The notes under the pieces were generated by a model that saw only the letters and a program-made list of their open reading frames with translations, made no database searches and was not told the origin of the DNA. Position numbers and translations under genes: made by a program. 64,000 nucleotides of DNA, taken from contig NZ_JAHKPJ010000002.1 of assembly GCF_018860345.1 (NCBI RefSeq), forward strand, positions 1 through 64,000, written 5' to 3'. Source of the stretch: Psychrosphaera sp. F3M07 (GTDB lineage Bacteria; Pseudomonadota; Gammaproteobacteria; Enterobacterales; Alteromonadaceae). This document shows positions 3,053 through 46,609 of the stretch, in pieces. The first letter of the stretch is position 1. Every line of letters starts with the position of its first letter.

Positions 3053-3290
3053 GTGACGAGTGACGAGTGACGAGTGAATAGTGACGAGTGAATAGTGACG
3101 AGTGAATAGTGAATAGTGAATAGTGAATAGTGAATAGTGAATAGTGAATAGTGAATAGTGAATAGTGAATAGTGAATAGTGAATAGTGAATAGTGAATAG
3201 TGAATAGTGAATAGTGAATAGTGAATAGTGAATAGTGAATAGTGAATAGTGAATAGTGAATAGTGAAGAGTGAATAGTGAATAGTGAAGA
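3053..3290. repeat. Heptanucleotide tandem array, 34 copies
   Basis: The 7-bp unit gtgaata is repeated without interruption for 238 bp. Variant units gtgacga are found only at the left end, alternating with gtgaata, and gtgaaga units only at the right end; the middle is uniform. This edge-variant, uniform-centre pattern is what repeated slippage or unequal exchange produces. The unit length is not a multiple of three. Heptanucleotide intergenic repeats (STRR) are described in filamentous cyanobacteria; whether these are related in origin is unknown. Confidence 0.95.
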
Positions 3291-3303
3291 GTTTGAGCCC
3301 CTC

Positions 3304-4088: not shown

Positions 4089-4145
4089 CGAGCTACGAGC
4101 TACGAGCTACGAGCTACGAGTTTAATCTCGAAAACTCGTAGCTCG
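4089..4145. repeat. Heptad repeat (cgagcta x4) with a 14-bp inverted repeat
   Basis: The unit cgagcta is repeated four times from 4089, followed by cgag. The last part, 4110-4123 (CGAGCTACGAGTTT), is the exact reverse complement of 4132-4145, giving a 14-bp stem with an 8-base loop. It sits in the gap between the lipoprotein gene and the YhhN-family gene. No T-run follows the stem in either direction, so it is not a standard terminator. Confidence 0.85.
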
Positions 4146-4158
4146 AAACTTAAAACCT

Positions 4159-7100
4159 TCAATCAATTACTTCAAAGTAAATTTGTTTAGCTGTACTTTC
4201 ATAACCATCACTTACAACGACCGTTATAAAGGTAGGTTCTCCATCTGTGGTGGCAATACCATTAACAACAACTTTATTTAAAGTGTTGATACTATCTAAA
4301 TCATTGACGATTTCAATATTGGCACTGGTATTTACCACACTTAATATCTCAACCGTTTCGCCATCTGGATCGGATAAGCTCAAAGATACGCTTGTTTGGA
4401 TAGGACGTGTGCCTTTCATTACTATCTTATCATCTGAATCTATTACCGGTTTTTCGTTTTCAAAACGGAATTTAGTTGGAATCGTCACGTAGGATGCCGC
4501 TGGAAAATCAGCATCATCTTCTATTCTAATTTCCATATCAAACTCCGCACTTTCTGTTCCTGAAGAAACGGACTCATTGATGCCTCTCACATAGTCAAAC
4601 ACAGCGCGTTTGCTCAATCCGAACAATTGCAATTTTTGGTCTACGTAGTTAACGGAAAAGTCATACACATCTTCTCTAAAGTCTTGAATTCTTACTTCAA
4701 TTTCGTGGGTGCTGCTGTCTGCATCTTCAATAATATAATTAAGCTCACTCTCAAAATCATTGGTGATAACAAGTACAAATTCATCCTCTTCTGTATCCTC
4801 TAATTGCTCAATGATAGTTAGAACTGGCGGGTTATTAACTGGAACCACAGTAAACGAAATCTCTCCAGGTGAAGGTAAATCAGCATCATCGCGAGCAACC
4901 ACATTAAATGTGTAGGCTTGTTCCGTATTTACATTTTCAGGTGTAGTAACGGTAATAGTACCTTCATAAATAAATACATCCGCTGTCTCATTGGTATCTT
5001 CAAGTAATACCGGCGTGCTGATCTCAACGATTATATCTGGCGATACATTAGACATGGACATCACCATATCGCCACCATTTAAATCTGAAATTCGGTAATT
5101 GATGGTTAAAATTTCATTTTCATCCACTTCATCACTGTAAGGCAATATTTCTAAAATAGGGGCTTCAGGTGAACGTGGAACCACTAAAGTCACATTTTTT
5201 TCAGTTAAATTAATGCCATCAAAAGCGGTTAAGGTAATGGCATACTCTTGTTCAAAATCAGAGCTTATATCAACACAAAAACTAATGATCCCAGTATCCT
5301 GATCCCAATCGTAAGTCACTAAAGCATTGCTTGATGCAGAATTTAATACCAGTGGGTCGTTATCGTCATCGGTAATGGTGACAAGTGTGCTGTTACATTC
5401 CCCCGGTAATATAGAGAAGGACTCTTGTTCTAGTAAAATAACAGGTGGCGCATTATCTGGGCTGATATAACGTATATATACTGAAATTATATCACTGTCG
5501 GTTTCACCAAATTCATCTTGAACATATACTTGGATTTCACCTGCGTAATCTTCTTCTAAATCCACTGAAGAAACGGTAAGGATGCCATCCACATAATCTA
5601 GAATTAGCTTAGTTTCATCAAAGCTAAATGTTGGTTGCAATTCAGGTTGGTCAATATCATCAACCCCGACAGATAACGAAATATTTTGTTGTTCTATAAA
5701 TTGAATATCATTAGTTTCTACAATTAATGATGGGGCTGTATTTTTATAAATATTAACGTCAATAACATGTTCACGTCGGCTTTCGAATACATCTTCTAAC
5801 CAAACAGTAACCTGCGTTGTAAAAGAGGCTTCAGGGCTTGATGCTGTGATAGTTAATATTGTGTCCGTGATTGACGCAACACTTTCACCATCAATATAGG
5901 TCACTCCTATTTCAAATGGATGCCTTTCAAAGTCTTCGGTATTAAAAAACTGTTCAATGGTTTTTGTTTCTAACAAGTTGATGGTTGTCGGCAAATCAAT
6001 AAATGGCGCAATATTAGGATTACCACCTAAAAAATCTAAATAGTTATCTGGAATGTATAAATGATAAGTCAGTTTGGATTCAAACTGTCCGTCACTGGCG
6101 GTTATGGTGATCTGGTCGTGTTCCAATTCTGACATATCAGTGGCCATAACATACACATAAGGCTCTTCAATACGGAAAGTATAATTATCTCTTGATGAGG
6201 ATACCGATATCTCTATGTCGTCGTTATCATCGTCAGAATAAGCAAAGGCAAGCTCTGCCACAATGCCAGTTTCAGTACCGTCCATTTTTTTTATCAAACT
6301 TACCGCAACGTTTTCTTCGATATATATTTGTGGACGTGTATTTGGAGATTGTTTTACTTGTTGTGTCACTTTATGCGCGGCAGACGTTTGTGCTTGCACT
6401 AAGTTAAAAGTGTAAACATCTTTATTATGTGCATCACTAACTTCTAATACTAATTCATTGTCAGACGCGTCAATCTCGTCGATAGTGTAAATAGTTAAAT
6501 CAAACCCTGATTCCACTTTGTTAATATGTGTTGCCACATAACTAGGCGCTGACAGAATACGATAAGAAATACGGTCACTATCTCGGTCATAAACACCAAA
6601 TGCTTTGTGTATAGTTGAATATGGCGTTATGGTTATTTCTGTGTCCAAAAGTGCGATTACAGGCACTTCTTCAGTGGTTAAGTCTCTATTTTTATTAAAA
6701 TAGATAACGTACATTTTTGACTCATGGATCACACCATCCACATTGGTCACTGCAATGATTTCACCATAGGTATCTTCATTACCTTCTCCAGCCGTTAGTG
6801 TAATTTGGGTTTTGTCTTTAGAGATTTTGCCCTTTACGTTATGGGTATTAAAATGGAAGGTTTCTACAATATGGTCTGCTTGTTCGTAGTTACGTTTTAT
6901 ATCAAACGTTATGCTTTCATGCTCAAAAATAGTTTGGTAATCAGAAGGAAAACGAATGTCATATTCCTCTGTATTTTCTGTGGGTGTGGTTGGTGTATCT
7001 GGAGTAGGATCTGGGTCGGTATTTTTATCGGTACTCTCAATCACCGTATATTTAATTTCATGGGTGACAAACATGGTGTCACTTTCAAAACGTAAATAAA

Positions 7101-7401
7101 ACGTACCTTCACCTAATGTATCTGCAGCAGTGTATGTAGCTAGGGTTAACTCGTCAGTGACGGAGACCGCTCCGCTTTCTGGTTCTTTACTGAGTTCAAA
7201 ATTAACGTCAAATTCACCGGTTTTTGAAATTTGTAATGCGATATCAAAGGATTTGCCAGCTTCAACTTCAAAAGCTTCAGTACTGAAATCAACAGAAAAT
7301 GTGTGGTCAACGTTTGTTTCTTTGTCACTTGAACAAGAAGACAACAGGAGCAAACTGACGAGTAAACATAATTTGGCAGTATATAAATCAAATTTAAACA
7401 T
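4159..7401 (-). CDS. Large surface lipoprotein with repeated Ig/cadherin-like domains
   Basis: The 1080-residue protein begins with a short charged segment and a hydrophobic stretch ending LLLLSSCSSDKET, a good lipoprotein signal with the acylated Cys near residue 23. After it come a Thr/Pro-rich linker (DPDPTPDTPTTPTEN) and a long series of beta-rich segments of about 90-110 residues with recurring motifs such as DDDND, ITASDGQFES, NTAPSLIVE, NNPPVLTI and DPDGETVEI. These resemble cadherin-like or bacterial Ig-like modules, which often bind calcium. It is very acidic overall. No catalytic domain is visible. The likely location is the outer membrane; an adhesin, matrix or scaffold role is plausible but not shown. 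It stands alone, with gaps on both sides. Confidence 0.8.
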   Translation of the reverse strand: MFKFDLYTAKLCLLVSLLLLSSCSSDKETNVDHTFSVDFSTEAFEVEAGKSFDIALQISKTGEFDVNFELSKEPESGAVSVTDELTLATYTAADTLGEGTFYLRFESDTMFVTHEIKYTVIESTDKNTDPDPTPDTPTTPTENTEEYDIRFPSDYQTIFEHESITFDIKRNYEQADHIVETFHFNTHNVKGKISKDKTQITLTAGEGNEDTYGEIIAVTNVDGVIHESKMYVIYFNKNRDLTTEEVPVIALLDTEITITPYSTIHKAFGVYDRDSDRISYRILSAPSYVATHINKVESGFDLTIYTIDEIDASDNELVLEVSDAHNKDVYTFNLVQAQTSAAHKVTQQVKQSPNTRPQIYIEENVAVSLIKKMDGTETGIVAELAFAYSDDDNDDIEISVSSSRDNYTFRIEEPYVYVMATDMSELEHDQITITASDGQFESKLTYHLYIPDNYLDFLGGNPNIAPFIDLPTTINLLETKTIEQFFNTEDFERHPFEIGVTYIDGESVASITDTILTITASSPEASFTTQVTVWLEDVFESRREHVIDVNIYKNTAPSLIVETNDIQFIEQQNISLSVGVDDIDQPELQPTFSFDETKLILDYVDGILTVSSVDLEEDYAGEIQVYVQDEFGETDSDIISVYIRYISPDNAPPVILLEQESFSILPGECNSTLVTITDDDNDPLVLNSASSNALVTYDWDQDTGIISFCVDISSDFEQEYAITLTAFDGINLTEKNVTLVVPRSPEAPILEILPYSDEVDENEILTINYRISDLNGGDMVMSMSNVSPDIIVEISTPVLLEDTNETADVFIYEGTITVTTPENVNTEQAYTFNVVARDDADLPSPGEISFTVVPVNNPPVLTIIEQLEDTEEDEFVLVITNDFESELNYIIEDADSSTHEIEVRIQDFREDVYDFSVNYVDQKLQLFGLSKRAVFDYVRGINESVSSGTESAEFDMEIRIEDDADFPAASYVTIPTKFRFENEKPVIDSDDKIVMKGTRPIQTSVSLSLSDPDGETVEILSVVNTSANIEIVNDLDSINTLNKVVVNGIATTDGEPTFITVVVSDGYESTAKQIYFEVID

Positions 7402-7608
7402 ATGATAACAACAACTGTTTTTTGAGTTTTTGGGGTCTAATTACTGTTAAACGCTTCAACCATAAAGGAAAATTTATAAAAACTAGTTTGGTAACTATGT
7501 TACTCAAGGACTATTTATAAATTATAGAGCAATAATAAGACTTGGATAAAAGGTTATCGGCAAAAAGCCTATTTGCTTTAAGGATGTGACGACAAAATTT
7601 ACGGTGAG

Positions 7609-7643
7609 TCGCCTTGTAATTTTTGAGGATTATTACAAGGCGA
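7609..7643. repeat. 12-bp perfect inverted repeat downstream of the CPA2 antiporter gene
   Basis: TCGCCTTGTAAT at 7609-7620 is the reverse complement of 7632-7643, with an 11-base loop. It lies 17 bases beyond the stop of the minus-strand antiporter gene and could end its transcript, but no T-run follows on that strand. The rest of the 7402-7659 gap shows nothing else clear. Confidence 0.5.
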
Positions 7644-7659
7644 ATCTGATAATGAGAAG

Positions 7660-9339
7660 TTAATCTTTTTGTTGTTTGTAATAGTTTGATTTGTAATCAT
7701 TTAAAACAATATTGAGCTGCTCTAACGTTAATTCATCTTGGTCTAATTCATAATGCGTCAGAATTAAACGCGCAAGTTCAATACTTGCTTCAATATTTTC
7801 AGACACGGCGTTGGTCGCACCTAATTCACGCAATTGATGGCACGTACTGCGGTCATGTCCACGAGCGTATATCGTTAAGTCGGGTAATTGTTTATGAATC
7901 GTTTCTACTAATGTTTTTGCTGTCTCAGCTTCATTTACGGTCACGACCATATAAGCGGCGTGTTTGATACCAGCTGAATTCAACACCACAGGTTTTGTTA
8001 CATCGCCATAATAGATAGGCACACCGAGTTTACTGTAATGAGCCACGGTAGCGGCGTTATCATCAATCGCAATAAAAGGTTGGTTTGCTATGGTCAGTAT
8101 ATCGCCAATAGAGCGTCCAACACGACCATATCCAGCAATTACAACACAATTATTGTCCGGGATCTCAGAGGCGTTATTCACCACTTTACTGCTTTTATTA
8201 AAGCGATTCGCTAAATAACCAAGTACAGGCGTAATAAGCATACTTATTAACACCACTAACAATAAAATATCAAACGTGTGGGTATCAAATATTTTGGCTT
8301 TTTCAGCTAAAGCAAATAACACTAATGCAAATTCGCCACTTTGCGCCAATATAAAGGCAACCGCCAAACTGCGTTTTGAATCTAAATTAAACATTCTAGA
8401 TAACGGATATAACAGACCGATTTTTAGAGTTAACAAAGCCGTAACTAATGCTGCAATTAATAAAGGATATTCAATGAGTTTGTCTAAATTTAATAACATG
8501 CCCATAGACATAAAAAACAAACCTAATAATAACCCTCTAAATGGCTGAACCTCAGCTCTTATTTGATGTCGATATGCGGAATCAGAAATTAACATTCCAG
8601 CTAAAAAAGCGCCCATCGCCATAGATAAACCGGCCAGTTCGGCTAAATACGCAGTGCCTAGAACAATTAACACAGCTGATGCAGTAAATACTTCTGAATT
8701 AGCGGACGCTGCTACTTTATGTAAAATAGGATTAAGTAAGTACCTGCCAACTAATATCACGGCCACTAAAATAGAAATGGAGCGAACAAATGCTAAGCCC
8801 AGATGTGTGTCAGAACTGCCGTGTACTGATAACAATGGGATCAATGCCAATAAAGGAACCACAGCTAAATCTTGTAATAACAATATGGCCACACTGGTGC
8901 GGCCGTATTCTGTATTTAATGATTTTTGATCGGTTAACAATTGCAGCACAAAAGCAGTAGAAGATAATGCTAGGGCTGGACCTATTATAATAGATGCAGG
9001 TAAAGACAAAGCGAAACCGTAATAACAAAGCGCACTAATAAGCGCGCCAGACAACAATACTTGTAAACTGCCTAAGCCAAAAACCAGACGCTTGATTTGC
9101 CAAAGGAAAGAGGGTTTTAACTCCATACCTATAACAAACAAAAGTAAAACAACGCCAAATTCAGAAATATGAGTGATATGTTCGACGTTATGGATCAGTC
9201 CTAAGCCAAATGGACCTGCGACCACACCTGCTATTAGAAAACCTGGAACCGCCCCCAATTTTAATGCCTGACAAATAGGCACAGCTATAACGGCTGCGGT
9301 TAATAAAAATATAATCTCTAATATAAAGTCGGACTGCAA
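7660..9339 (-). CDS. CPA2-family cation:proton antiporter with RCK (TrkA-N) domain
   Basis: The first ~380 residues form about twelve membrane segments with the CPA2/KefB pattern, including LKLGAVPGFLIAGVVAGP, FGVVLLLFVIGMEL, SSTAFVLQLL and MAMGAFLAGMLISDS. A cytoplasmic Rossmann domain follows from about residue 395 (NNCVVIAGYGRVGRSIGDIL) and binds NAD(H) or a nucleotide. This is the layout of KefB/KefC and YbaL: potassium or sodium efflux coupled to proton entry in the inner membrane, gated by the RCK domain. The protein is 559 residues, close to YbaL and slightly shorter than KefC. No KefF/KefG ancillary gene is adjacent, so glutathione gating cannot be claimed. It is transcribed alone. 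Confidence 0.9.
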   Translation of the reverse strand: MQSDFILEIIFLLTAAVIAVPICQALKLGAVPGFLIAGVVAGPFGLGLIHNVEHITHISEFGVVLLLFVIGMELKPSFLWQIKRLVFGLGSLQVLLSGALISALCYYGFALSLPASIIIGPALALSSTAFVLQLLTDQKSLNTEYGRTSVAILLLQDLAVVPLLALIPLLSVHGSSDTHLGLAFVRSISILVAVILVGRYLLNPILHKVAASANSEVFTASAVLIVLGTAYLAELAGLSMAMGAFLAGMLISDSAYRHQIRAEVQPFRGLLLGLFFMSMGMLLNLDKLIEYPLLIAALVTALLTLKIGLLYPLSRMFNLDSKRSLAVAFILAQSGEFALVLFALAEKAKIFDTHTFDILLLVVLISMLITPVLGYLANRFNKSSKVVNNASEIPDNNCVVIAGYGRVGRSIGDILTIANQPFIAIDDNAATVAHYSKLGVPIYYGDVTKPVVLNSAGIKHAAYMVVTVNEAETAKTLVETIHKQLPDLTIYARGHDRSTCHQLRELGATNAVSENIEASIELARLILTHYELDQDELTLEQLNIVLNDYKSNYYKQQKD

Positions 9340-21694: not shown

Positions 21695-24600
21695 TTATTG
21701 GCCAATTAAATCAAGCTGCCAGGTGGATTTATGTTGATCAAACCCATGTTTTACAAACTCGACAAAGTCATCATTAATTAACGGCTTACTAAAGTAATAT
21801 CCCTGAATTAATCCGCAATTAAAGGCATGTAATATCTTTAATTGCTCCAATGTCTCAATCCCTTCAGCAACTACATTTAAGCTCATAGATTCGGCGAGCA
21901 CCATAATTGCTTTTACGATGGCTTCGTCATTTTCATTATCTGCGATATCAATAATGAATGAACGGTCAATTTTTAACGTATTTATTGGGAATTTCTTTAA
22001 ATAACTCAATGAAGAATATCCCGTACCAAAATCATCAACTGCAATGGTTACGCCCATGTCTTTTAAGTTTTGCAAACGTATTATGTTGTCTTCAACATCA
22101 GACATGATGGCACTTTCAGTCAATTCCAATTCTAATAACTCAGGGGGTAAACCAGAATCGCTCAGAGCCAATTTAACTTTTTCAATTAAGGCTGATTGCT
22201 TAAATTGAACACTAGAAACATTGACTGAAATTCGACAAGGCATGCCATCGTCTAACCAACGTTTAGCCTGAAAACAAGATTCTCGTAATATCCATTCGCC
22301 TAGCTCAATAATCAAACCTGATTCTTCAGCTAAAGGGATAAACTCTATTGGTGAAACAACGCCCAATTCTGGATGTCGCCATCTCACCAAAGCTTCCGCT
22401 TTATTTACGCAATTGTTCACCAAGTCGACTTGTGGTTGGAAATGTAATTCAAACTCTCGATTCTCTATGCCGGTTCTCAGATATTCTTCTAGTTTTAAGT
22501 GCTCTAAACCTTTGTCATTTAAAGAATGGGCATAAAAAGAATAAGTCCGTCGGCCAATTTCTTTTGCTTTGTACATCGCAATGTCAGCGTGTTTCATTAA
22601 TTCGTTTACTGAATTACCGTCATCTGGATAAATCGCAATACCAATACTTGGTGTTACCATTACTTCATAATTTTCAATCTTAATTGGCTTAGAAATACTG
22701 TCGATAATTCGTTGAGTGATGATGGCAATTTCTTCAGATCCTTCAACTTGACTTAAGAATAGGGTGAATTCATCACCGCCAAGTCTTGCTATTTCACTAT
22801 CGGGTTTTGCTACATCAGAAGTTCTTGCGACCATATCGCTGGTACGTATACAGCCATTTAAACGTTCTGCAATCTCTTGTAACACCAAATCACCATACTC
22901 ATGACCTAAGGTGTCGTTTATCCGTTTAAACCTGTCTAAATCAATAAACATAACCGCAGCTTGGTAATGGCCTCGTTTTGCTAATGATAAAAACTTCTCT
23001 AAGCTTTCGTAGAAACTCTGGCGGTTTGGTAAACCGGTTAATGAATCATAATAAGCAAGTCTGTGCAGTCGTTGTTCGTGAGCAAGTTGACGCCTAACTT
23101 TCTCTTTTTGTTGCTGAACCAATAAATAGACAGAAGTAACCAGCACTAATATATAAGTTAAATATGAATACCATGTGCGCCAAAGTGGTGGTAACACTTC
23201 AATTGGAATAACAAGCTCATCACTCCAAACATTATCATTATTACTTCCTTTAACTCGTAGGGTGTAATCCCCATCATCTAAATAAGAGAAAGATATTTTG
23301 TTATTGGTCCCTAAGTTAATCCAAGTATCGCCCAATCCTTCCATTTTATATTGGTATTTATTATTTTCAGGTTTAGTGAAATCTAAAGCAGCAAACTCAA
23401 AATCAACAATGGTTTTATTATAGTTAAGCGCTAATACGCCGTCTTCCCTTAGTTCTTGATGGATAGGACGTACCACATTGGACTGACTGTACTTGGTAAG
23501 ACGTAAATCAGGTTTGTGATTATTAATAGGCACGTTTTCCGGTTTGAAGGTATTAAACCCGTTTGAGCCACCAAAATACATACGGCCAGTATTATCTTTA
23601 TAAAATGCACTGCTGTTAAAGTCGGTACCCTGCAATCCGTGAGTGGTATTAAAGTTGATCACTGCAAAGGTTTTGCTATCTATTCTGGACAGCCCCTTGG
23701 CATGACTAACCCAAATAAAGCCATTTTCATCCTCTAACATGCCATAAGTGAAATTACTAGCTAACCCATGTTGTGTCCCAATATGCTCAAAAACAATTAT
23801 GTTTTTGTCTAATTTAGCTTTATTGAGTCGGGCGATACCCGCATCTTTGGTAGCAACCCAAATGTAATCTTTCGTATTAAGTACACCAAATATATCATCA
23901 CTTAATAATTGATTTGCTTTATTAGGATTAGACAAAAATTGTGTGATCTGTTTACTTGTAAAGTTGTATTTTATTAATCCACCATCTCGAGTAGCAATCC
24001 AAATGTTACCTTTTTCATCTTCAGTTAAATCAACGATATATATACTAAGAGGGGATTTTTTGACTGAAGATGGTAATTCAATGAGTGTGAATTTGTTATT
24101 ATTTATATCAAATAAATTTAATCCACCACCATAAGTTGCAACAGCTATTTTACCGTTCGATAACTCAAGAATCTTACTTATAGCGTTATCACTTATAGAC
24201 GAAGGGTTGCTTTTATCATGACTAAAAACTGATAGTTTGGAAGAATCTTTCTTTTTTTTATGTAAACCACTTCGTAACGTTCCTATCCATAAGTTATCAG
24301 AAGTATCGACTAATAAGCTCATAACATTGTCTTCTTGTAAAGTATCCAGACGTTGGCCATTCGCTCTTATACTATTAATTGTATTATCCTTATTGGAAAG
24401 AACACTAACACCACCATTCCAAGTTCCAATATATAAATTTTTCGATTTGTCCGTAGCAAAAGCCATAATCGAGTTACTCGTTAATGCATCGTACTTTCCA
24501 TGTTTACTTATATGAGGAAAATAATTTAAAGATGCATTCCAGCGGCTAATTCCTGATTGAGTTCCAACCCAAATAACGCCGCCTGAGTCTTGCATTAATG

Positions 24601-25612
24601 CCGATGTCCTATTACTAACTAAACTGGAGTTTCGTGAAGCTTGGTGCAAGGTTCGGGTGAAAGTTTTGCCATCGTCATTTAATTTACATAGGCCATTTTC
24701 AGTGGCAAACCACATAGTGTTGTTGTTGTCTTGCATTATGCTATTTACATAATTGGCACAAAGACTATTTTCGATTTGAGCGTTAAATATAAAGTGTTTA
24801 GTCACTTCTAATTTCTGATTTAGAACAAAGACACCTGCATCTTCCGATCCCACCCAAACATGATTATTATTATCAACAAATAACGTTCTTAATTTATCGC
24901 TTGGAATTGACTTTCTTGACTTTAAAGTAAATTGTTCATAGTGAGTTTCATTTTCACGTTTTAGCTTTAACCCATTTTTTGGTGATGCAATCCATAAGTT
25001 ACCATTATTATCAAAAATTAAATCAGAGACTGGATTAGATTTAATAATAGAGTTTGGTTTCTCATTTAACTGCGTTGTGAATTTTGTAGTTTGAATATCA
25101 AATTCTGTATAACCAGAAAATTGGCTGGCAAATAATATATTGCCATTAGGGGCTTCGGTTATAGATACATAACTTGCTCCATCTATACCATTAATGCCTT
25201 TATCAGAATTATAATTTTTAAAACCATCAATCTCCGGAATATATAGATGAAAACCACCACTACTAGCAGCCCACAACCGACCTTCTGAATCTATATATAG
25301 ATCCCAAATCCAGTTATTGCCTAAACTCGTTTCAACACCAGGAGAGTGATTATACGTTTTGAATTGTTTGCCATCATAACGGGTTAATCCGTCTTGTGTC
25401 GCAATCCAGATAAAACCCATTGGGTCTTGCACTAAGGCATTAACAGCAGGATGAGGTAAACCATGTTCCGCAGTAATGTGATTGAAGAAAATATTATTAT
25501 TAGCTTCGTTTAACCATGTATTTGAAATGGCAGTTGAAGAAAAAATAAGTAATAAAAGAGGTATAAATCGTTTTTTTATTATTAACTTGAAAGATGAGAT
25601 AGAGAACAACAT
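21695..25612 (-). CDS. Two-component-propeller sensor with GGDEF and EAL domains
   Basis: The 1305-residue protein begins with a signal anchor and then about 700 residues of periplasmic propeller repeats (recurring GFIWIATQDGLTRYD, NLWIASPKNGL, HVWVGSEDAGV and similar). A Y_Y_Y domain (near 720-810, ending DYTLRVKGSNNDNVWS) and one membrane helix (about 815-835) lead into a cytoplasmic GGDEF domain with an intact RLGGDEF motif near residue 945, and an EAL domain with EALVRWRHP near 1070, DDFGTGYSSL, KIDRSFI and VVAEGIET. Both c-di-GMP synthesis and breakdown look possible. Propeller/Y_Y_Y sensors usually read extracellular ligands, often glycans. It is a single-gene unit. Confidence 0.93.
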   Translation of the reverse strand: MLFSISSFKLIIKKRFIPLLLLIFSSTAISNTWLNEANNNIFFNHITAEHGLPHPAVNALVQDPMGFIWIATQDGLTRYDGKQFKTYNHSPGVETSLGNNWIWDLYIDSEGRLWAASSGGFHLYIPEIDGFKNYNSDKGINGIDGASYVSITEAPNGNILFASQFSGYTEFDIQTTKFTTQLNEKPNSIIKSNPVSDLIFDNNGNLWIASPKNGLKLKRENETHYEQFTLKSRKSIPSDKLRTLFVDNNNHVWVGSEDAGVFVLNQKLEVTKHFIFNAQIENSLCANYVNSIMQDNNNTMWFATENGLCKLNDDGKTFTRTLHQASRNSSLVSNRTSALMQDSGGVIWVGTQSGISRWNASLNYFPHISKHGKYDALTSNSIMAFATDKSKNLYIGTWNGGVSVLSNKDNTINSIRANGQRLDTLQEDNVMSLLVDTSDNLWIGTLRSGLHKKKKDSSKLSVFSHDKSNPSSISDNAISKILELSNGKIAVATYGGGLNLFDINNNKFTLIELPSSVKKSPLSIYIVDLTEDEKGNIWIATRDGGLIKYNFTSKQITQFLSNPNKANQLLSDDIFGVLNTKDYIWVATKDAGIARLNKAKLDKNIIVFEHIGTQHGLASNFTYGMLEDENGFIWVSHAKGLSRIDSKTFAVINFNTTHGLQGTDFNSSAFYKDNTGRMYFGGSNGFNTFKPENVPINNHKPDLRLTKYSQSNVVRPIHQELREDGVLALNYNKTIVDFEFAALDFTKPENNKYQYKMEGLGDTWINLGTNNKISFSYLDDGDYTLRVKGSNNDNVWSDELVIPIEVLPPLWRTWYSYLTYILVLVTSVYLLVQQQKEKVRRQLAHEQRLHRLAYYDSLTGLPNRQSFYESLEKFLSLAKRGHYQAAVMFIDLDRFKRINDTLGHEYGDLVLQEIAERLNGCIRTSDMVARTSDVAKPDSEIARLGGDEFTLFLSQVEGSEEIAIITQRIIDSISKPIKIENYEVMVTPSIGIAIYPDDGNSVNELMKHADIAMYKAKEIGRRTYSFYAHSLNDKGLEHLKLEEYLRTGIENREFELHFQPQVDLVNNCVNKAEALVRWRHPELGVVSPIEFIPLAEESGLIIELGEWILRESCFQAKRWLDDGMPCRISVNVSSVQFKQSALIEKVKLALSDSGLPPELLELELTESAIMSDVEDNIIRLQNLKDMGVTIAVDDFGTGYSSLSYLKKFPINTLKIDRSFIIDIADNENDEAIVKAIMVLAESMSLNVVAEGIETLEQLKILHAFNCGLIQGYYFSKPLINDDFVEFVKHGFDQHKSTWQLDLIGQ

Positions 25613-25725: not shown

Positions 25726-25748
25726 AAAAAAGCCCCTTAAAAGGGGCA
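25726..25748 (-). terminator. Intrinsic terminator for the I9/repeat-peptide gene
   Basis: On the minus strand GCCCCTTTTAAGGGGC (25732-25747) forms a GC-rich hairpin followed directly by a run of six T. It lies 23 bases beyond the stop codon at 25771. Confidence 0.9.
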
Positions 25749-25770: not shown

Positions 25771-26235
25771 CTAAGCGAACTCAGCGCCGCCTTGTTTTGT
25801 ACGTATAGGCCATACAAAAGCAGCAACTTCAGCTCCACCTTGCTTTGTACGTATAGGCCAAACAAAAGCAGCAACTTCAGCTCCACCTTGCTTAGTACGA
25901 ATTGGCCATACAAATGCCGCAGTTTCTAATGCTTTGTCATTTGAAGATAAACGCACTAAAGGATTGATAGTATTAAGTTGAGTTGTTTGTTCTTCTGTTA
26001 ATGAAGCTGATATAGCGTTAATAACAGAAAAGTCATGAATAATTTCGCCACCAACTTGCTGAACAAGTTCAACCATTGTTGCTTTACTCGCACCTTGTAA
26101 CATATAGGCAATTTCGTTTGAATTTGACTGATAAACATTAGATGCGGCTAACAATGTAAATACACTGGCAGTCGATAACAAGATTGCTTTTTTTGCTTTA
26201 TTAAAAACTTTGTTAAACATGACGATAATTTCCAT
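25771..26235 (-). CDS. Small exported protein: propeptide (I9)-like domain plus three identical 16-residue repeats
   Basis: I do not recognise a named family for the whole protein. The best start is the ATG at 26218-26220 (MFNKVFNK), with GGAAA upstream; the longer frame starts at 26235. From there it has a basic N-terminus and hydrophobic stretch (AILLSTASVFTLLAAS), likely a signal peptide. Residues about 35-98 (EIAYMLQGASKATMVELV, then QQVGGEIIHDFSVINAISASLTEEQ cut in two here) resemble the inhibitor I9/subtilisin propeptide fold. In place of a protease domain come three copies of AAFVWPIRTKQGGAEV, the last ending EFA. No Cys is present. It stands alone with its own terminator; no protease, modifying enzyme or transporter is adjacent. 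It could be a peptide precursor, a protease inhibitor or a remnant; the codon pattern argues against a remnant. Confidence 0.75.
   Translation of the reverse strand: MEIIVMFNKVFNKAKKAILLSTASVFTLLAASNVYQSNSNEIAYMLQGASKATMVELVQQVGGEIIHDFSVINAISASLTEEQTTQLNTINPLVRLSSNDKALETAAFVWPIRTKQGGAEVAAFVWPIRTKQGGAEVAAFVWPIRTKQGGAEFA
25777..25920 (-). repeat. Three 48-bp in-frame direct repeats
   Basis: The units are 25873-25920 (first in the protein), 25825-25872 and 25777-25824. Units one and two differ at six bases, all synonymous. Units two and three differ in six codons, five synonymous; only the last codon (Val to Phe) changes the residue. Confidence 0.95.
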
Positions 26236-26430
26236 TTTTTATTATTAGTGACTCTTTGCTAGCAAATTCAGTACCAAATAAGAAAGATGGATTTTTGACG
26301 TTATTAATTAGTTACTTAAATGGCTTGAGGACCTTTATTTATAGGGTAATTGATAATGGGCTTGTTTTTGATGTGGCTGTTCTAATAATGTGTTTTGAAT
26401 ATAAAAATAGAGTTTGTACGGTAAATGTTT

Positions 26431-26463
26431 GCCGTTGGTTGGCCGTTGGTTGGCCGTTGGTGA
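26431..26463. repeat. Three 11-bp tandem direct repeats
   Basis: The unit gccgttggttg is present twice exactly (26431-26441, 26442-26452) and once as gccgttggtga (26453-26463). It is more GC-rich than the surrounding DNA. It lies about 210 bases upstream of the I9/repeat gene start. Confidence 0.85.
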
Positions 26464-26592
26464 GGTGTGTTTTTGCCGTGTAATTTTTACGTTAATGGCA
26501 TCTAAATTACCGTTATATAGTTATATAACTAATATACAAAAAAAGGTGTTATACAGAGAAGTGGTAAACAGATAAATGTTAAACAGAGAATG

Positions 26593-26632: not shown

Positions 26633-27163
26633 TTAAATGGTTTTAAGTTTTAGCAAACGAGTAGCAACAACAGCAGTAATACAAGCTGTATAACAACTAA
26701 ATATAAATACCATCCACTGTGGCATAGAATACCCAAACAATGACCAGTCGATATCGCCGCAAGTGCCTCTAGGTTCAAATAATGAAGGCATTAGAGTGTG
26801 CAATTGCAACCAATCTGGGAAGTTAGGGTAGACATCACAACTAAGGGCTAATAAGAAGTTATCAGGATTTTGCATTGCTACATGTTCTAATGCGATCAAC
26901 AGCCCCCAAATACAAGCCACCAATAATCCTGTAATACTGATCATTCGAGCGATATTACTTTGAGGAACCGATAACGCTGGTAGGCTACTTAATAAAATGC
27001 CAAATACAGCGACACGCTGGTAAATGCACATAATACAAGGCTCTAACCCCATACCGTATTGAAAGTACAAAGCAACGGATTCTAATATAAGCGCACTGGT
27101 AGCTACGATAAACCAAGGCCAGCGTGTAGCTGGCCAAGTCGATATTGCAGTTAAATTAAACAC
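26633..27163 (-). CDS. dsbB: Disulfide bond formation protein B
   Basis: DsbB is the inner-membrane quinone reductase that reoxidises DsbA. The 176-residue protein has four membrane helices, the first periplasmic Cys pair C43/C46 in EPCIMCIYQR, and the second pair C109 and C135 in a loop containing CDVYPNFPDWLQLH and GTCGDIDW. All four redox cysteines are present. It starts five bases after the nhaB stop, so both are read as one unit; E. coli has the same nhaB-dsbB neighbourhood. The CcmG and CcmH thiol proteins encoded further right depend on this kind of redox control. Confidence 0.95.
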   Translation of the reverse strand: MFNLTAISTWPATRWPWFIVATSALILESVALYFQYGMGLEPCIMCIYQRVAVFGILLSSLPALSVPQSNIARMISITGLLVACIWGLLIALEHVAMQNPDNFLLALSCDVYPNFPDWLQLHTLMPSLFEPRGTCGDIDWSLFGYSMPQWMVFIFSCYTACITAVVATRLLKLKTI

Positions 27164-46553: not shown

Positions 46554-46588
46554 GGCTATAAGCCATAAGCCATAAGCCATAAGCTATA
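46554..46588. repeat. Short heptanucleotide tandem array (agccata)
   Basis: Five 7-bp units run from 46554: ggctata, agccata three times, then agctata, with a degenerate continuation (aggttata). It lies in the gap between the mlaA terminator and the end of ilvH. The unit differs in sequence from the arrays at 3053 and 4089 but has the same length. Confidence 0.85.
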
Positions 46589-46609
46589 AGGTTATAAGGC
46601 TTTCCAGTT

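Follow-up and report, generated by a model that had tools for sequence, protein, structure and literature searches.

To our knowledge, the ligands of Reg_prop beta-propeller sensors are known for few systems, and these are mostly glycans. The sensor described here shares its double Reg_prop propeller and Y_Y_Y periplasmic part with HTCS sensors of the BT4663 type (4a2m, 3v9f), but its output is GGDEF-EAL and not kinase/AraC, and it is adjoined by a gene for a peptide array that is its predicted ligand. The N-terminal domain of the neighbouring protein resembles subtilisin propeptides and I9 inhibitors (1spb, 1scj, 8c4x) in profile and fold, but in the present gene it is followed by the array, without a protease domain. 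The arrangement is reminiscent of multi-copy precursors of the yeast alpha-factor type, which are likewise secreted and combine repeated cores with variable spacers and varying copy number; the present case differs in that it is bacterial, uses an I9 or I9-S8 carrier, shows no dedicated processing enzyme and has a release of units that is only predicted. The agr and ComQXPA loci resemble the proposed pair in that an adjacent variable ligand and receptor ectodomain change together while the output is conserved, but here the system is Gram-negative, the receptor is a propeller, the array is multi-copy, and the association is found in only part of the family. Beta-propellers that read short linear motifs are described for Bub3-MELT, where the motif is multi-copy, and for the clathrin N-terminal domain (PMC3779320, PMC5182127); both are eukaryotic and intracellular and provide an analogy only. 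The single parts of the locus (I9, S8, Reg_prop, GGDEF and EAL) are thus known; what we regard as new, as a system and not as a single gene, is the family of arrays and the pairing of these with the sensor, because they match no system that we tested or know of. We found no description of the array-sensor pairing in the open-access literature.

The window analysed is a stretch of 64,000 nucleotides from Psychrosphaera sp. F3M07, and its features are collected in Table 1. The window's list of open reading frames places the frame 25771-26235 on the minus strand; within it, the ATG at 26220 is the likelier start, giving a protein of 149 aa and matching the ortholog of a congener (G003), and a GGA read by eye lies at -13 to -11 relative to this ATG. 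The genome carries a single copy of this precursor gene. In the AF2 model the signal-like helix spans aa 3-29, and confidence is low in the C-terminal array (pLDDT 55-59), which is probably disordered. Pfam matches of the protein to Hok/gef, APS-reductase_C, FixS and CDC48_N were all below their cut-offs and were rejected, and a promoter scan of the region found two sites, with 3.9 expected. Short tandem repeats occur in the intergenic stretch upstream of the gene (26427-26461, GTTGGCCGTTG; 26547-26590, TGTTAAACAGAGAAA). Elsewhere in the window there is a 7-bp tandem array of AGTGAAT (3073-3292, 31.4 copies, 94% matches), and shorter arrays of 7-bp units lie at 4089-4120 (CGAGCTA) and 46558-46590 (ATAAGCC).

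Table 1 Features of the precursor-sensor locus in window coordinates.
Feature	Position	Strand	Description	Evidence
Upstream flanking gene	26633..27163	-	Positional anchor	176-aa homologue in 7/7 congeneric loci compared
Precursor gene	25774..26220	-	149 aa; putative signal helix, I9-like domain and three-unit array	ORF table, repeats, syntenic orthologs, dN/dS
Signal-peptide-like helix	26122..26220	-	aa 1-33, end approximate; KK, then hydrophobic stretch	AF2 helix 3-29
I9/propeptide-like domain	25942..26112	-	aa 37-93	PDB profile search, AF2, Foldseek
Array unit 1	25873..25920	-	AAFVWPIRTKQGGAEV	TRF and codon comparison
Array unit 2	25825..25872	-	AAFVWPIRTKQGGAEV	TRF and codon comparison
Array unit 3	25777..25824	-	AAFVWPIRTKQGGAEF	TRF and codon comparison
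Precursor stop codon	25771-25773	-		
Intrinsic-terminator-like hairpin	25732..25747	-	Between precursor and sensor genes	6 pairs, then T6
Sensor gene	21695..25612	-	1305 aa; Reg_prop double propeller, Y_Y_Y, TM-like helix, GGDEF and EAL	Pfam, AF2, Foldseek

A preliminary description of this DNA had proposed an I9/propeptide-like domain that is not followed by an S8 protease domain, and both statements hold. A profile of 32 N-terminal domains retrieved subtilisin prosegments from the PDB (8c4x_B, E 1.2e-4; 1spb_P, E 5.8e-4), and AF2 predicts a beta-alpha-beta-beta-alpha-beta fold with pLDDT 94-97 over most of the domain. Prosegments also head the Foldseek list obtained with this model, the best being 1spb_P (E 2.2e-3, probability 1.00), with no match at E <= 0.001. 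The Pfam I9 family (PF05922) gave no match for the window protein and matched 4 of the 32 members of the domain alignment at E <= 0.1; the I9 assignment rests on the PDB profile search and the predicted fold, Pfam not contributing. According to Pfam, the catalytic S8 domain is absent from the window protein; it is present in relatives.

The array is detected by TRF as a 48-bp period at 25920-25777 (2.9 copies, score 219). Counted from the codons, neighbouring 16-residue units differ at 12 codons, 11 of them synonymous and one being the final Val-to-Phe, a recount that agrees with the earlier one and supports its proposal that selection acts on the peptide itself. By the Nei-Gojobori method, the differences amount to 12 at 23.7 synonymous sites and 1 at 72.3 nonsynonymous sites. 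Since in the window and its congeners the units of an array are alike over their whole length, spacers included (pS 0.51, pN 0.014 in the window array), a contrast between core and spacer is visible here only between species. There, copy number varies as the preliminary description had suggested checking, with three units in the window, three in G003 and eight in G001, and the unit is largely conserved: FVWPIRTK is common to all three and the remainder of the unit differs. The GG of the unit had been named as a possible cleavage site, but it is absent from the units of G001 (AGFVWPIRTKRIQSEV); as both the GG and the basic residues vary between congeners, we rejected them as cleavage sites. The suggested design of a putatively exported carrier with repeated short peptides is supported.

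The sensor gene is the next gene downstream of the precursor on the same strand and starts 158 bases past the precursor's stop codon. AF2 modelled aa 30-835 of the sensor with a mean pLDDT of 86.1, and the top Foldseek match of the periplasmic part is BT4663 (4a2m, E 4.1e-53), a heparin-sensing HTCS; a hybrid histidine kinase with AraC output was not found in the window sensor by Pfam. The terminator scan of the region returned five rows, four of which are the one hairpin between the two genes on two strands, with 0.6 expected from shuffles; the fold z of this hairpin is -2.81. The 176-aa upstream flanking gene is a putative dsbB. A second Reg_prop gene of the same genome (G000:C25), with a neighbour that is presumably groEL-like, has no array gene that we could see beside it. 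The preliminary description overlooked the adjacent sensor, as well as the wider array-subtilase family and the array-propeller association treated below.

The precursor query found matches in 19 of the 98 genomes searched, its own included. Within the genus it matched seven of eight genomes at E <= 0.01, and gave no match at this threshold in the 290-contig draft of the remaining congener (G006). At all seven loci the precursor has the 176-aa gene on one side and the sensor gene on the other, and all seven sensors match the propeller model and hold the GGDEF motif. Four loci (the window, G001, G002 and G003) carry the short form, with a masked stretch in G002, and three (G004, G005 and G007) encode a full subtilase that is preceded by an I9-like domain and followed by an array, whose units are built on Trp in two of them and on Phe-Tyr in G007. 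These three are S8 proteases with the kind of tail that the preliminary description had proposed to look for. Relatives do show a full protease domain, which the preliminary description had listed among its refuting results, but the short form, present at four of the seven loci, does not look like a protease in decay. Among three of the four short-form congeners, the dN/dS of the I9 part is 0.07-0.13, on which we reject a decaying protease and regard the short-form precursor as maintained. Since I9-S8-array is the widespread architecture, loss of the protease domain is the simplest origin of the short form. At E <= 1e-15 the window's own genome has a single S8 match, a 1321-aa frame at another place (L177); this frame does not match the subfamily profile at E <= 1e-20 and has no array by the repeat criterion, and indeed none of the four short-form genomes matches that profile at E <= 1e-20. 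In Psychrosphaera haliotis (L034, about 6990-7727), the sensor ORF starts inside the propeller after a 741-base gap, which could reflect a frameshift, an assembly error or a truncation.

The wider family was searched with the C-terminal half of the S8 domain, without the tail, as query. Of at least 588 matching stretches, 519 were confirmed, and the 79 named loci are the nearest relatives (best 80 of 519) and not a census; 77 were usable, L077 and L085 being without a plus-strand ORF. By the taxa in their records, the named loci belong to Gammaproteobacteria, Acidobacteriota, Chloroflexota and one Acidimicrobiia bin, and many are metagenome bins. A W- or F-containing 4-mer occurs at least three times in the tail of all 77 of these nearest relatives, as compared with 2 of 37 control S8 regions, both with DAFP (three of 40 controls were dropped as having no ORF with the S8 motif). 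Cores are mostly spaced by 6 or 11 residues, also by 7, 12, 13, 14 or 16, and vary between species (GFVWSD, TIIWRM, GMLWKT, AHLWPN, AFMWEE, GYIWNL and others), and a C-terminal NxWVEQE-like end fits 67 of the 77 tails under a loose pattern. The window protein has the I9-like domain and the repeated aromatic array of this subfamily, without the S8 part and the NxWVEQE-like end. One 6-residue array comes near Pfam Hexapep (E 5.6e-6, 26.3 bits vs. a cut-off of 27), and some arrays may consequently be folded coils, although this match is below the cut-off. The subfamily profile matches 104 of 395 genomes of the window's family at E <= 1e-20.

By the propeller model, a Reg_prop gene is the next gene on the same strand at 42 of the 77 named loci and lies within three genes at 54, all counts referring to the best 80 of 519; by the taxa in the records, the latter comprise 53 of 60 proteobacterial loci and 1 of 17 others. 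Among 37 control subtilases of relatives, none has a Reg_prop gene within three genes. In a further set of 55 array-subtilase ORFs, mostly from one family, the gene is next in 48 and within three genes in 50; two of the 55 repeat named loci, and of the seven without a next-gene sensor L225 and L236 run to the contig end. These counts establish both the protease family and its adjacency to sensor genes. Pfam identified Reg_prop and Y_Y_Y in nine of nine sensors, and their outputs are GGDEF, GGDEF-EAL, hybrid kinases (two with Hpt), a HisKA_2 kinase and a sigma-54 activator; a constant ectodomain with changing outputs is expected if the ectodomain is the part relevant to the array. Among the loci of other phyla, several on short contigs, 16 of 17 have no Reg_prop gene within three genes. 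At two Chloroflexota loci a histidine kinase with no Reg_prop match comes next, and a radical-SAM gene lies two genes on at one Acidobacteria locus. One direct neighbour was examined at each of ten array-S8 loci with no Reg_prop gene in the three-gene range: two, both at proteobacterial loci, encode EAL or GGDEF-EAL (L121, L092), S8, MFS, transposase, ABC and sortase neighbours occur once each, and three have no Pfam match. The mixture indicates no single partner outside the Reg_prop loci.

Selection on the repeats was assessed in 25 Colwellia-like loci of period 11, in which cores have a pS of 0.695 and a pN of 0.025 and spacers a pS of 0.714 and a pN of 0.376. The core figure is filtered for units in which at least four of six core residues, W included, equal the commonest hexamer of the locus; without the filter, when the degenerate W unit of many arrays is counted, pN is 0.229 in cores and 0.423 in spacers. 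Thus, in these 25 loci the core is conserved by selection and the spacers are free, as in a multi-copy precursor, and the conservation of the repeats by selection is a matter of observation. Recent DNA duplication was rejected as the cause of the repeats in the 25 arrays, in which synonymous divergence is near saturation and the core unchanged. Between close species, all true units change their core together and unit-specific spacers are largely kept (TIIWRM in L051, TLLWRM in L059). This disfavours homogenisation of whole units, since spacers and silent sites would have moved along, and very short conversion tracts may be a source of core identity. Judged by pS, the window array (0.51) is younger than the Colwellia-like arrays, and those of G001 and L048 (0.26) are younger still.

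We then compared distances between cores with distances between the domains encoded at the same loci. In a discovery set of 30 GGDEF-type loci, core distance was correlated with propeller distance given S8, I9 and output (partial r 0.544, p 0.0005; mean 0.49 with equal-size column samples), and I9, protease and output domain kept no residual with core distance; the p values of these partial Mantel tests are approximate and can be too small with related sequences. When each core type was represented by a single locus (n = 19), the propeller value was 0.372 (p 0.0005), and in the 24-locus Colwellia-like subset the output domain kept 0.144 (p 0.026). A replication with 27 loci outside the discovery set, after omission of 19 loci as identical to discovery loci and two as sensor-less or too short, yielded 0.325 for the propeller (p 0.0005), five of these loci (L043-L047) having been inspected before the test was planned; here the protease also kept 0.196 (p 0.02). 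For all 57 loci the partial r is 0.414 (p 0.0005). For these loci, simple mismatch counts gave 0.277, and 0.309 with near-duplicates removed. Propeller distance is itself related to output-domain distance within the sensor (0.331, 0.222 and 0.651 in three sets). Among pairs with an S8 identity of 0.85-0.95, propeller identity was 0.780, 0.715 and 0.631 at 0, 1-2 and 3 or more core differences (39, 67 and 82 pairs), and identity of the output part in the same pairs was 0.775, 0.777 and 0.757.

Along the sensor, the discovery association is about zero in columns 0-150, which lie nearest the array, and in the Y_Y_Y part, and amounts to 0.32-0.58 in propeller columns 150-700 except for 0.12 at 450; the best S8 window reaches 0.20 and the best output window 0.21. 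As the nearest propeller columns are near zero and farther ones high, there is no plain linkage gradient in this set. In the replication set the columns nearest the array have 0.13-0.31 and the Y_Y_Y part zero or below, and in both sets the maximum falls in columns 600-650. Mapping of single co-varying sites was weak (r > 0.4 in 1.5% of propeller, 0.5% of S8 and 0% of output sites) and was abandoned. The test by sensor group used 47 loci, one of the 48 with a next-gene sensor having fallen out. The propeller residual was 0.084 (p 0.13) in 27 hybrid-kinase-type loci, where the protease keeps 0.178 (p 0.018) and cores follow phylogeny (raw r of 0.79-0.86 for each of the domains), and -0.147 (p 0.73) in 12 other loci, where the value for the protease is 0.388 (p 0.027). 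The association of core with propeller is hence established in one group of loci: it is firm in the Colwellia-like group and suggestive in Psychrosphaera, in which G007 and G004 have identities of 0.82 in I9, 0.83 in the output and 0.41 in the propeller, with dissimilar array units. Psychrosphaera has too few species for a core-propeller test of its own. A mosaic locus of Colwellia hornerae (L053) follows L061 in I9 (0.83) and output (0.95) and L051 in core and propeller (0.81), and looks as if array and propeller had been exchanged as a cassette; being physical neighbours, the two can be moved together by recombination.

With moderate confidence we favour the reading that the array is the predicted species-specific ligand of the neighbouring sensor, and that the lineage of the window lost the protease and kept ligand and receptor. 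The precursor would be exported via its signal helix, the I9-like domain may act as a folding or carrier domain, as its fold suggests, and the Trp-centred array, either after release as peptides or within an intact multivalent tail, would be bound by the propeller and alter c-di-GMP through the GGDEF-EAL output. In most relatives examined, the array forms the tail of a subtilase whose I9-like domain belongs to the same family, and the protease there may release its own units or display them; in part of Psychrosphaera the protease domain was probably lost with array and sensor retained. Because four Psychrosphaera genomes keep array and sensor without a protease, it would be the array, and not proteolysis, that the sensor needs. 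It is unlikely, though deserving of attention, that the array instead serves the protease as a structural, sorting or substrate tail, that the sensor senses a glycan (as does BT4663) or protein debris and controls the protease, and that the window gene is a leftover prodomain-tail protein. The heparin-sensing HTCS as best match of the sensor fold agrees with this explanation, as do the arrays of Chloroflexota and Acidobacteriota, which among the best 80 of 519 are mostly without Reg_prop neighbours. In addition, the NxWVEQE-like end common to many tails (67 of 77 by the loose pattern, best 80 of 519) could be a sorting end, and the array near Hexapep hints that some arrays are perhaps folded coils. 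However, the short form has lost both the protease and the C-terminal end, and yet purifying selection acts on its I9 part in three congeners, and the gene keeps its place before the sensor at four congeneric loci; moreover, a sorting tail predicts no association with the propeller of the next gene.

That association could also arise by linkage, array and propeller being fast-evolving neighbours that are co-exchanged by recombination without any contact, an explanation that we consider improbable. Their adjacency in the DNA, mosaics such as L053, the absence of the propeller signal in the two other sensor groups and the non-zero values of the nearest propeller windows in the replication set all fit it, but the discovery association is near zero next to the array and strong farther away, with columns 600-650 at the top in both sets, and linkage leaves the same core across units at near-saturated synonymous divergence unexplained. 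Free-standing I9 inhibitors are known, and the I9 fold of the window protein would suit a stand-alone inhibitor of a subtilase with the repeats as an unimportant tail; this is very improbable, as the units are held at the amino-acid level and the only S8 match of the genome (E <= 1e-15) has no subfamily-profile match at E <= 1e-20 and no array by the repeat criterion. A decaying pseudogene with recently duplicated DNA, which the full protease of relatives might bring to mind, is hardly credible and is contradicted by the sequence, given the dN/dS of 0.07-0.13 in the I9 part and the 11 synonymous changes among the 12 codon differences between units.

Should the array prove to be the ligand, a genetically encoded, synthesizable candidate ligand would be at hand for many c-di-GMP, phosphorelay and sigma-54 sensors, and a class of peptide signalling in marine Gram-negative bacteria would come into view; the association of core with propeller opens direct swap tests. 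More tentatively, and with some doubt on our part, the loci may constitute a Gram-negative peptide language, in which subtilase-borne arrays would release or display species-specific Trp peptides, beta-propeller sensors would read them and control c-di-GMP, phosphorelays or sigma-54 promoters, and array and receptor would diversify together like pherotypes. The lineage of the window would then have dropped the processing protease, so that only precursor and receptor remain.

The array-subtilases themselves show further variation. Phe replaces the central Trp in L105, L116, L119 and the tail of G007 (L032), with NPFVDG, YFFNDS and GLIFYDKE. Five array-subtilases from Pseudomonadales and other gammaproteobacterial or proteobacterial bins (L120, L123, L126, L104 and L094) carry N-terminal YLWDDE-like repeats or single copies, and this N-terminal core is unlike the C-terminal core of the same proteins. 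Four large genomes of one genus (G020, G106, G139 and G167) hold 7-10 array-type S8 matches each, several of which are clustered in tandem, for instance at G139:C19:48830-60176.
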